From positions 1 to 34,972 of the forward strand of contig NZ_JAQGLS010000165.1 in NCBI RefSeq assembly GCF_028292805.1: a DNA stretch of 34,972 bases, read 5' to 3'. Positions 21,043 through 25,369 of the stretch are shown piece by piece (positions within the stretch are counted from its first letter, which is position 1; every line of letters starts with the position of its first letter). Both the position numbers and the translations under genes were made by a program. The notes under the pieces were generated by a model that saw nothing but the letters and a program-made list of their open reading frames with translations, ran no database searches and was not told the DNA's origin. The stretch comes from Ramlibacter sp. (lineage in GTDB: Bacteria > Pseudomonadota > Gammaproteobacteria > Burkholderiales > Burkholderiaceae_C).

Positions 21043-21831
21043 TCAGGAACGCGGTGAGGAGGCACCGGCCGGACGCACGCTCACTTCGGAGCTGCTGATG
21101 GCCTGCATGCCGGCCGCAGTATGCACCAGCAGGCTGCCGACCTCGGTCACGCCGTGGGCGGTGCCGGTGGTGCCGTCGCTCAGGGTGACCGGCCGGTCGC
21201 GCAACGCGTCGCGGGCCTGGAAGCGGGCCTGGAACGGGGCGAAGCCGAACTGCTCGAACGCCTGCAGCGCCAGCACCAGCGGGCCGGCCAGGCGCAGCAA
21301 GGTGCTGCCGGCGTCGGCGTCGGGATCGAGTTCCGCCACCGCCGCCGGCGGGGTCGACAAGCCCTGGGCGGGCCGCGGCGCGATGTTCAGGCCGACGCCG
21401 ACCACGGCATAGCGGCCGCCGCCGGCGCTGCCCTCGCCGAAGCTCGCGGTTTCGATCAGGATGCCGCCCAGCTTGCGGTCACGCAGCCACAGGTCGTTCG
21501 GCCACTTGAGCTGGACGGCGGGGTCCAGGCTTTCGGCTATGCTGGCGCCCACTGCCAGGGAAAGCCCCGACCAGTCAGCGCCCGCCAGCGACAGACCCAG
21601 CGAAAAGGTCAGCGACGCCCCGGCCTCGCCGTGCCAGTTGCGGCCCAGCCGGCCGCGGCCGGCGGTCTGGCGCTCGGCCACCAGCAGCACGGGATCGGTC
21701 CGGCCGGCCCGGACCCGGCGCATCAGTTCGGAATTGGTCGAGTCCAGTTCCGGCAGCACTTCGACGGTGAAGCCGGGCAGCAGGGGCTCCACCTGCTGCC
21801 AGATCGCTTCCGCCGGCCAGCGGATCGCCAC
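21043..21831 (-). CDS. birA: Biotin--[acetyl-CoA-carboxylase] ligase, monofunctional BirA-type
   Basis: LDSTNSELMRR...AERQTAGRGRLGRNWHGEAGASLTFSL...LKWPNDLWLRDRKLGGILIE...GVGLNI; no N-terminal HTH. GTG start at 21831 immediately follows the SET gene stop (tentative). Confidence 0.88.
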   Translation of the reverse strand: MAIRWPAEAIWQQVEPLLPGFTVEVLPELDSTNSELMRRVRAGRTDPVLLVAERQTAGRGRLGRNWHGEAGASLTFSLGLSLAGADWSGLSLAVGASIAESLDPAVQLKWPNDLWLRDRKLGGILIETASFGEGSAGGGRYAVVGVGLNIAPRPAQGLSTPPAAVAELDPDADAGSTLLRLAGPLVLALQAFEQFGFAPFQARFQARDALRDRPVTLSDGTTGTAHGVTEVGSLLVHTAAGMQAISSSEVSVRPAGASSPRS

Positions 21832-21833
21832 GC

Positions 21834-22310
21834 TCAGCGGCGCCGCTTGGGTGCCAGCAAGGTGCCGCGGCATTCGGGGGCGCCGCACCAGCAGGGATAC
21901 TCGGCCTTCAGTTTCTTGGTATACGGCTCGTCGATGATCAGGCCGTAGTCGTAGTTGAGTTCCTCGCCCGCCGCTATGTTGCGCAAGCTCTTGATGAACA
22001 CCCGCCCGCCGTCCTCGTCCGCCTCGCAGTTGGGGGCGCAGGAGTGGTTGATCCAGCGCGAGGCGTTGCCGCCGTGGGCTGCATCGATCACCCGGTCTTC
22101 GTCGATATGGAAGTAGAAAGTATGGTTCGGATCTTCGGGATTCCAGGGATGGCGGCGCTGCGCCTCCTTCCAGGAAATGATCTCGCCCACGTATTCGATG
22201 AGGGTCTCGCCTTCCGGGATGTCCCGAAGCGCGAAGACCCCCTTGCCGTGCACGCCGGACTTGCGGACTTGGATGCGGCGGTTGGTCTTGGGGGCGGACT
22301 TGGCGGGCAT
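21834..22310 (-). CDS. SET-domain protein-lysine methyltransferase
   Basis: IQVRKSGVHGKGVFALRDIPEGETLIEYVGEII...ASRWINHSCAPNCEADEDGGRVFIKSLRNIAAGEELNYDYGL...CWCGAPECRGTLL; SET NHSCxPN and ELNYDY motifs plus post-SET CxCGxxxCRG. Confidence 0.93.
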   Translation of the reverse strand: MPAKSAPKTNRRIQVRKSGVHGKGVFALRDIPEGETLIEYVGEIISWKEAQRRHPWNPEDPNHTFYFHIDEDRVIDAAHGGNASRWINHSCAPNCEADEDGGRVFIKSLRNIAAGEELNYDYGLIIDEPYTKKLKAEYPCWCGAPECRGTLLAPKRRR

Positions 22311-22335
22311 GTTGAAATTTCTGTTAACTTGAATT

Positions 22336-22371
22336 CGTACACGTGCGCGCATGCGCGTGCGCGTACATGCG
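22336..22371. other. 36-bp strictly alternating purine/pyrimidine tract (Z-DNA-prone)
   Basis: CGTACACGTGCGCGCATGCGCGTGCGCGTACATGCG, uninterrupted RY alternation, mostly CG and CA/TG steps, in the SET/topB divergent intergenic region. Confidence 0.9.
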
Positions 22372-22408
22372 GGAAAAGCCGCGATTGTAAGAACACCTGG
22401 GAACGTCC

Positions 22409-25369
22409 GTGACGACCAAGACATTAGTGATCGCCGAGAAACCATCCGTGGCGCAGGACATCGTCCGCGCGCTGGCGCCGGTGGCGGGCAAATTCGACAA
22501 GCACGACGAGTACTTCGAGAGCGACGGATACATCGTCACCAGCGCCGTCGGCCACCTGGTGGAGATCCACGCGCCCGAGGAATTCGACGTCAAGCGCGGC
22601 AAGTGGAGCTTCGCCAACCTGCCGGTGATTCCGCCGTACTTCGAGCTCAAACCCGTGGACAAGACCAAGACGCGGCTGAACGCGGTGGTCAAGCTGGCCA
22701 AGCGCAAGGACGTGGGCGACCTCGTCAACGCCTGTGACGCGGGGCGCGAAGGCGAGCTGATCTTCCGGCTGATCGAGCAGTACGCCGGCGGCGCCAAGGG
22801 GCCGCTGGGCAAGCCGGTGCGCCGGCTGTGGCTGCAGTCGATGACGCCGCAGGCCATCCGCGACGGCTTCGACAAGCTGCGCAGCGACCAGCAGATGCAG
22901 GGCCTGGCCCACGCCGCCCGCTCGCGCTCGGAGGCCGACTGGCTGGTGGGCATCAACGGCACCCGCGCCATGACGGCGTTCAACTCGCGCGACGGCGGCT
23001 TTTTCCTGACCACCGTCGGCCGGGTCCAGACGCCCACACTGGCCATCGTGGTCGAGCGCGAGGAACAGATTCGCAAGTTCATCAGCCGCGACTACTGGGA
23101 GGTGCACGCCAGCTTTCTGGCCGAGGCGGGCGAATACCCGGGCAAGTGGTTCGACCCGGCCTGGAAGAAAGACCCGGAAGACGCCGAAAAGCGGGCCGAC
23201 CGCCTGTGGGACCAGAAGCAGGCCCTGGCGATCGCCGAGGCGGTACGCGGCAAGGCCGCCAGCGTCACCGAGGAGTCCAAGCCGACCTCGCAGGCGCCCC
23301 CCGGCCTGTTCGACCTGACCTCTCTGCAGCGCGAGGCCAACGGCCGCTTTGGCTACTCGGCCAAGACCACGCTGGCGCTGGCGCAGTCGCTGTACGAGCG
23401 GCACAAGGCCCTGACCTACCCGCGGACCGACTCGCGCCACCTGCCGCAAGACTACGTCAAGGTGGTGCAGGACACCATGGGCATGCTGGCCGGCAGCGGC
23501 ATGGGCCACCTCGCGCCGTTCGCGGCGCAGGCTGTCAAGGAAGGCTACGTCAAGCCGGTCAAGCGCGTGTTCGACGATGCCAAGGTCAGCGACCACTTCG
23601 CCATCATCCCCACGCTGCAGGCGCCCAGCGGCCTGTCCGAGGCCGAGCAGAAGCTGTACGACCTGGTGGTGCGGCGCTTTCTGGCAGTGTTCTTCCCCAG
23701 CGCCGAGTACATGGTCACCACCCGCATCAGCCAGGCGGTGGGCCATCATTTCAAGACCGAGGGCAAGGTGCTGGTCAAGCCGGGCTGGCTGGCCATCTAC
23801 GGCAAGGAAGCCGCGGCCGAGGTGGAAGACGCCAAGGAAGGCGACAAGGGCCAGAACCTGGTGCCGGTCAAGCCGGGCGAGATGGTGCGCAGCGAAACGG
23901 TCGAGGCCAAGGGCCTGAAGACCCGGCCGCCCGCGCGCTACAGCGAAGCGACGCTGCTGGGCGCGATGGAAGGCGCCGGCAAGTTCGTGGAAGACGACGA
24001 ACTGCGCGAAGCCATGCAGGAAAAAGGCCTGGGCACGCCGGCCACGCGGGCCGCCACCATCGAAGGCCTGATCAACGAAAAGTACATGCTGCGCGAAGGC
24101 CGCGAGCTGATCCCCACGGCCAAGGCGTTCCAGCTGATGACGCTGCTGCGCGGTCTGGGCGTGGAGGAGTTGAGCAAGCCCGAGCTGACCGGCGAGTGGG
24201 AATACAAGCTGGCGCAGATGGAGCACGGCAAGCTGTCGCGCGACGACTTCATGCGCGAGATCGCCGAGATGACGGCGCGGATCGTGCAAAAGGCCAAGAC
24301 CTACGACCGCGACACGGTACCGGGCGACTACGCCACCTTGAAGACGCCCTGCCCGAACTGCGCCGGCGTGATCCAGGAAAGCTACCGCCGCTTCAACTGC
24401 ATCGGCGGCAACGGCAAGGAGCCGTGCGGCTTCTCCTTCACCAAGATCCCGGCCGGGCGCGCCTTCGAACTCGACGAGGTCGAGCAGTTCCTGCGCGACA
24501 AGCGCATCGGCCCGTTGCAGGGCTTTCGCTCCAAGGCCGGCTGGCCATTCACCGCCGAACTGGCGCTGGTGTTCGACGAGGAAGACAAGAACTGGAAGCT
24601 GGAGTTCGACTTCGGCGAGGACAAGAACGCCGAGTCGGGCGAGATCGTCGACCTGTCGGCGCTGGAGCCGCTCGGGCCTTGCCCCAAGTGCGGCGCCCGG
24701 GTGTTCGAGTGGGGCAGCAACTACGTGTGCGAGCGGGCCGTGCCGACGCACGACCATCCCACCCCCAGCTGCGACTTCCGCAGCGGCAAGATCATCCTGC
24801 AGCAGCCGGTGGAGCGCGAGCAGATGGCCAAGCTGCTGGCCACCGGCAAGACCGACTTGCTGGACAAGTTCGTCTCGATGCGGACCCGGCGCTCGTTCAA
24901 GGCCTTCCTGGCCTGGGATGCGGAAGCCGGCAAGGTGAACTTCGAGTTCGAGCCGCGCGCCTCCAAGTTCCCGCCGCGCAAGGGCGCGCCGGCCAAGGCG
25001 CCGCCGCTGAAGGCGACGGCCAAGGCGGCCAGGACCGTGGCCGGCAAGAAGGTCGCGGCCAAGAAGGTCGCCCCCGCGAAGAAGGCGCCGGCGGCCAAGA
25101 AGGCCGCGGCCCCGAAGGCGCCGCGCAAGACCGGCGCCGGCTTGCGCCCGAGCGCCGAGCTGGCCGCCGTGATCGGCAGCCAGCCGGTGGCCCGCACCGA
25201 GGTGATCAAGAAGATCTGGGACTACATCAAGGCCAACGGCCTGCAGGACAGCGTCAACAAGCGCGCCATCAACGCCGACGCCAAGTTGAAGCCCGTGTTC
25301 GGCAAGCCGCAGGTGACGATGTTCGAGCTGGCCGGCATCGTCGGCAAGCACCTGACGGCGGTGGAGTGA
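22409..25369 (+). CDS. topB: DNA topoisomerase III with histone H1-like basic tail and C-terminal SWIB domain
   Basis: MTTKTLVIAEKPSVAQDIVRALAPV...NACDAGREGELIFRL...ALTYPRTDSRHLP; Zn-binding Cys clusters; Lys/Ala-rich tail AKAPPLKATAKAARTVAGKKVAAKKVAPAKKAPAAKKAAAPKAPRK; then SWIB-like LAAVIGSQPVARTEVIKKIWDYIKANGLQDSVNKRAINADAKLKPVFGKPQVTMFELAGIVGKHL. Confidence 0.96.
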   Translation: MTTKTLVIAEKPSVAQDIVRALAPVAGKFDKHDEYFESDGYIVTSAVGHLVEIHAPEEFDVKRGKWSFANLPVIPPYFELKPVDKTKTRLNAVVKLAKRKDVGDLVNACDAGREGELIFRLIEQYAGGAKGPLGKPVRRLWLQSMTPQAIRDGFDKLRSDQQMQGLAHAARSRSEADWLVGINGTRAMTAFNSRDGGFFLTTVGRVQTPTLAIVVEREEQIRKFISRDYWEVHASFLAEAGEYPGKWFDPAWKKDPEDAEKRADRLWDQKQALAIAEAVRGKAASVTEESKPTSQAPPGLFDLTSLQREANGRFGYSAKTTLALAQSLYERHKALTYPRTDSRHLPQDYVKVVQDTMGMLAGSGMGHLAPFAAQAVKEGYVKPVKRVFDDAKVSDHFAIIPTLQAPSGLSEAEQKLYDLVVRRFLAVFFPSAEYMVTTRISQAVGHHFKTEGKVLVKPGWLAIYGKEAAAEVEDAKEGDKGQNLVPVKPGEMVRSETVEAKGLKTRPPARYSEATLLGAMEGAGKFVEDDELREAMQEKGLGTPATRAATIEGLINEKYMLREGRELIPTAKAFQLMTLLRGLGVEELSKPELTGEWEYKLAQMEHGKLSRDDFMREIAEMTARIVQKAKTYDRDTVPGDYATLKTPCPNCAGVIQESYRRFNCIGGNGKEPCGFSFTKIPAGRAFELDEVEQFLRDKRIGPLQGFRSKAGWPFTAELALVFDEEDKNWKLEFDFGEDKNAESGEIVDLSALEPLGPCPKCGARVFEWGSNYVCERAVPTHDHPTPSCDFRSGKIILQQPVEREQMAKLLATGKTDLLDKFVSMRTRRSFKAFLAWDAEAGKVNFEFEPRASKFPPRKGAPAKAPPLKATAKAARTVAGKKVAAKKVAPAKKAPAAKKAAAPKAPRKTGAGLRPSAELAAVIGSQPVARTEVIKKIWDYIKANGLQDSVNKRAINADAKLKPVFGKPQVTMFELAGIVGKHLTAVE

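Follow-up and report, generated by a model that had tools for sequence, protein, structure and literature searches.

The window analysed, a 34,972-nucleotide stretch of Ramlibacter sp. DNA, carries the gene for DNA topoisomerase III (topB) and, divergent from it, a small gene for a SET-domain protein followed by a birA-like open reading frame (Table 1). The SET protein is 94% identical to that of R. terrae and 92% identical to that of R. pallidus. In TopB, the C-terminal SWIB/MDM2 domain sits after a lysine/alanine-rich linker. Between the two divergent genes lies the sequence CGTACACGTGCGCGCATGCGCGTGCGCGTACATGCG, a perfect purine-pyrimidine alternation that is ended by T22335 on one side and by G22372 on the other. 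The first-pass annotation had described 36 bp of unbroken alternation at this site, which re-examination bore out; of the two distances that it gave, the 37 bp to the topB start (a GTG) stands, while the 26 bp to the SET start (an ATG) becomes 25 bp when measured.

Table 1. Features of the topB-SET region (positions within the window)
Feature	Position	Strand	Remarks
birA-like biotin--protein ligase ORF	21043..21888	-	Downstream of SET; ORF overlaps SET end; true start uncertain
SET-domain protein gene	21834..22310	-	158 aa; divergent from topB; Pfam
Predicted extended -10 box of topB, TGTTAACTT	22322..22330	+	Motif from 108 loci; family consensus TGnTAnnTT then GAA
Z-DNA-prone alternating Y-R tract, 36 bp	22336..22371		18 Y-R steps: CG, CA/TG and TA; family-conserved
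Predicted -10 box TACAAT toward SET-birA (ATTGTA on + strand)	22384..22389	-	Motif from 108 loci; nearly invariant in family
topB, DNA topoisomerase III	22409..25369	+	Toprim + Topoisom_bac + C-terminal repeats + SWIB domain; Pfam

Pattern searches of the whole 3.83-Mb genome, on which all genome-wide statements about this strain are based, identified the tract as the longest Y-R alternation present and the sole run of at least 24; the second-longest run within the window measures 13. With an order-2 Markov model of the window, 1.7e-5 runs of at least 36 are expected by chance per 3.83 Mb, and the same model is accurate for shorter runs (27.7 expected and 27 observed at lengths of at least 10). 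Tandem Repeats Finder reported no tandem copies of one unit over the tract, as a dinucleotide microsatellite would contain, and no Rfam family was found in the window.

Motif searches in 108 loci uncovered a candidate promoter element on either side of the tract. The SET-side motif, T[TC]TGnTAnnTTGAA, points toward topB and has the form of an extended -10 (TGnTAnnnT), with frequencies of 0.65 and 0.99 for the two bases of TG, 0.98 and 0.96 for those of TA and 0.98 for the final T. The topB-side motif, TACAAT, points toward SET-birA. A strict facing pair of -10 boxes is found in 75 of 130 loci. The boxes have no clear consensus -35, and a sigma-70 consensus scan called no promoter or terminator near the tract. 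From the orientation of the two motifs we infer that the promoters point toward each other across the tract, where both transcripts would be expected to begin, the start sites themselves being predicted.

Distribution of the tract and its association with topB

The family considered here is, by its named members, Comamonadaceae in the NCBI sense or the GTDB family containing Comamonadaceae. An alternating tract, with differing letters, is found in nearly every SET-topB gap of the named relatives compared (Ramlibacter, Caenimonas, Limnohabitans, Rhodoferax, Curvibacter, Polaromonas, Delftia, Comamonas, Hydrogenophaga and others). Among congeners, 33 of 40 have a Y-R run of at least 28, and nearly all of the runs listed lie at the topB-SET locus. 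A TACAAT-anchored pattern matched in 75 of 151 family genomes (67 of 126 genera), in single copy in all but one, and 28 of the 30 matching loci that were read were topB-SET; the reversed control of this pattern gave no match. When topB upstream regions were drawn from 130 family genomes, runs of at least 15 were present in 96 of the 110 genomes with adjacent SET and topB, as opposed to none of 110 equal-length controls from SET-coding sequence (median longest run 23.5 versus 9, control maximum 13), and in 7 of 9 genomes with a gene intervening between SET and topB; the loci are related by descent, so that these counts are not independent, and they span more than 60 genera. The lack of an alternating tract in orthologous regions had been named in advance as evidence that would speak against the first-pass proposal of a supercoiling-sensing tract, and the opposite was found. 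The tract is no chance feature of a single genome.

Across the 151 genomes, 60 of the 96 distinct long runs (at least 25, with one boundary type) lie no more than 1.1 kb from topB. Another recurrent long run, CGCACGCGCGCGCGCGTGCACAC, found in G179 (L317), G085 (L318), G211 (L319) and G207 (L320), was set aside as protein-coding: it encodes the peptide MWELRTRARVHTSS, in an enzyme that by eye resembles a GH15 glycosidase. In genome G017 (L005) an assembly break between contigs C316 and C331 falls inside the SET gene beside the tract, so that the tract shares a contig with a fragment of SET while the greater part of SET is on the other.

Outside the family, the anchored pattern was absent from 195 genomes of the same order, and a sample of the class gave 3 matches in 184. 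Upstream of topB in these outside genomes no tract was present, the longest run having a median of about 8 and a maximum of 14. Within the family, the tract has been lost in roughly a tenth of the genomes; together with its loss from two SET-less genomes (see below), this indicates that it is not essential.

In the window the SET frame is open to position 22445, so the tract might be taken to code for an N-terminal extension of SET. However, the distance to SET and topB keeps no fixed reading phase, in-frame stops intervene in many relatives, and SET homology begins after the tract. The variable phase and the stops led to the rejection of this extension, which we regard as next to impossible.

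Genomes in which the gene order differs make it possible to ask which of the two genes the tract accompanies. Six genomes lacking SET were found. A run of 17-21 persists at topB in three of them (G130, G199, G086), a fourth (G100) has a broken tract there, and the remaining two, from one genus (G201, G088), have lost it. Relocation of SET by 8 kb in G136 has left a once-interrupted tract at topB and none at the moved SET. In about nine genomes another gene lies between tract and topB; in seven of these the tract adjoins SET and heads the topB-ward unit. Taken together, the loss or relocation of SET and the intervening genes support assigning the element to the transcription unit of topB and viewing SET-birA as sharing it. 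The tract is thus a feature of a topoisomerase gene's promoter region that stays with the topoisomerase gene, as expected of a supercoiling-homeostatic promoter.

Some further observations concern these variant loci. On inspection by eye, a birA-like gene appears in the place of SET in the SET-less genomes, and the gene between tract and topB (L155, L173, L177, L187, L205, L256, L259, L278) is in some cases thioredoxin-like, with a CPFC motif. At two SET-less loci of one genus (L233, L243), about 60 bp of GC-rich sequence separates the tract from the ATTGTA box.

Pattern of sequence change and predicted Z-DNA competence

Comparison of nearest relatives, in which alternation was not required of the second sequence, gave a transition to transversion ratio of 78:17 within the tract versus 135:177 in the flanks (p=1.6e-11), and a ratio of even to odd indels of 78:9 versus 150:188 (p=2e-15). 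Positions in the tract body conserve their purine or pyrimidine class, with little base preference within the class. The object of conservation is, on this comparative evidence, alternation rather than letters. A neutral microsatellite, in which slippage in a CG/CA-rich repeat and CpG deamination regenerate the alternation, would account for part of the pattern, since slippage alone could produce the predominance of even-length indels and alternation survives every transition. Transversions, however, are depleted relative to the flanks, the tract stays rich in GC even where the locus has 47% GC, no tandem unit is detected, and one fixed locus has been kept in more than 60 genera; we consider such an origin very improbable.

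The most base-specific positions are six bases at the topB edge (CGCGCG or CGCGTG, then AGA), in a positional analysis whose outermost nine positions alternate by construction. Base-specific information of this kind, together with the restriction of the tract to one family, speaks for the alternative that an unknown family-specific protein binds the tract, by shape or as a degenerate Y-R sequence and possibly in B-form, and regulates topB and SET-birA. Against such a site, the body mainly keeps the purine/pyrimidine class, tract length ranges from 17 to more than 50 bp across the family, and no fixed half-site recurs. A protein site is an unlikely explanation, albeit the least unlikely of the alternatives considered here.

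Not all alternating steps are used equally. The Y-R steps of the family tracts are CG (49%), TG (32%), CA (14%) and TA (5%), in keeping with the dominance of CG and CA/TG that had been noted in the Ramlibacter tract. TA steps number 76 of 1370 (5.5%), whereas 275 (20%) would be expected if the letters followed the flanks, and even the AT-richest loci have 6 of 82 versus 30 expected. Tract GC does not correlate with genome GC (rho 0.07, n.s.). Since alternation alone would permit TATATA, the avoidance of TA favours Z-DNA energetics over a role in flexibility or spacing.

The energetics were approached with a two-state B-Z model that includes phase and a junction penalty and uses approximate Z-Hunt-type dinucleotide energies. 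Of all sites in the window, the tract flips most easily in this model, its predicted onset (sigma about -0.039) falling at physiological superhelicity, and the orthologous gaps flip more easily than their coding controls in 107 of 110 cases. A Z-Hunt-type score had been proposed as a check of the first-pass annotation's Z-DNA candidate; the tract ranks as the top site of the window. With alternation running well over a dozen bp, free letters, TA avoidance irrespective of genome GC and the best predicted B-Z energetics of its neighbourhood, the Z-DNA reading of the tract is well supported by sequence comparison. The conservation pattern suggests that evolution preserves the ability of the tract to flip into left-handed Z-DNA, perhaps to sense the twisting of DNA.

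One aspect of composition is not predicted by a strand-symmetric Z model: read in the topB direction, TG steps outnumber CA steps 435 to 198 (loci L149-L282). Transcription-linked deamination is one possible cause. The asymmetry would also fit selection on RNA or on early transcription, whereby the tract, as the start of both mRNAs, would act through a hairpin, promoter-proximal pausing or sense-antisense pairing. Y-G steps are pause-prone; furthermore, the start sites are predicted at the edges of the tract, and the SET-side leader in the window has a somewhat better fold than its shuffles (z -1.7). The topB-side leader, in contrast, does no better than shuffles (z -0.39), hairpin energy in 79 tracts is just slightly under that of Y-R-step permutations (mean z -0.32, s.e. 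0.13), and hairpins require neither unbroken alternation nor avoidance of TA. Such RNA-level selection seems less probable still than a protein site, though more probable than neutral slippage.

Proposed working of the element and comparison with known systems

Weighing these data, we lean toward regarding the tract as a Z-DNA-competent structural element, under selection and acting in cis in the topB promoter, that is placed between two facing promoters and would couple topB expression to topology. Kept as a Z-competent alternation of CG, TG and CA steps, the tract would provide the first transcribed bases of both units, with the extended -10 (TGnTAnnTT) firing into topB and TACAAT into SET-birA. 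Under ordinary torsion it would remain B-form. As negative superhelicity rises in the domain, it would flip to left-handed Z, absorb several turns, and confront both start sites with a barrier and a pair of B-Z junctions; the flip, the absorption of turns and the junctions are expected from established Z-DNA physics. The junctions may then alter initiation or escape and change the firing of topB and SET-birA, the outcome being TopB expression coupled to DNA topology. A homeostatic loop would raise topB expression as negative supercoiling increases; a simple block to elongation would lower it. It seems conceivable, because the two promoters face each other, that the tract would instead buffer torsion between converging polymerases. 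The leading hypothesis, already raised by the first-pass annotation and partly supported here, is that supercoiling drives the control of topB. The more far-reaching proposal, of a family-wide, vertically conserved Z-DNA torsion switch that acts as a protein-free sensor coupling transcription of topoisomerase III (and SET-birA) to local supercoiling, is put forward tentatively, as a possibility that may well prove too strong.

Whether Z-DNA has a selected role in bacteria is, to our knowledge, an old open question. In the present case, one orthologous site keeps Z-competence in more than 60 genera despite the turnover of its letters, beside a gene whose product acts on topology, and the tract constitutes a defined, portable element for direct tests of Z-DNA and torsion in gene control. 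A literature search that covered chiefly openly accessible journals returned no prior report of the tract at topB.

Supercoiling-responsive topoisomerase promoters are known from the homeostasis of gyrase and topA (Menzel and Gellert 1983, as cited in PMC9825172), with further cases in the gyrA promoter (PMC6170449) and in Streptomyces topA/gyr (PMC5055605). The locus studied here resembles these in pairing a topoisomerase gene with a promoter proposed to read DNA topology. It differs in that the known cases concern gyrase and topoisomerase I, whereas the gene here is topB and the response is predicted; nor do the consulted passages of the three articles describe a long conserved alternating tract for the gyrase or topA promoters. 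Z-DNA-forming sequences near transcription starts have been reported for mouse genes in the SIBZ study (PMC3024258) and by human ChIP-Seq (PMC5066173). Common to those cases and to ours are alternating Y-R sequences beside start sites that negative superhelicity is predicted to flip; however, the mouse and human cases are eukaryotic and statistical, whereas a single orthologous site of a bacterial family is involved here, with alternation conserved and letters turning over. Finally, a survey of alternating R-Y sequences in prokaryotic genomes, beta-proteobacteria included, counted the same kind of pattern and found it suppressed genome-wide (PMC4060949). Topoisomerases are not mentioned in that survey, and it is against this genome-wide suppression that the single conserved site at topB stands out.
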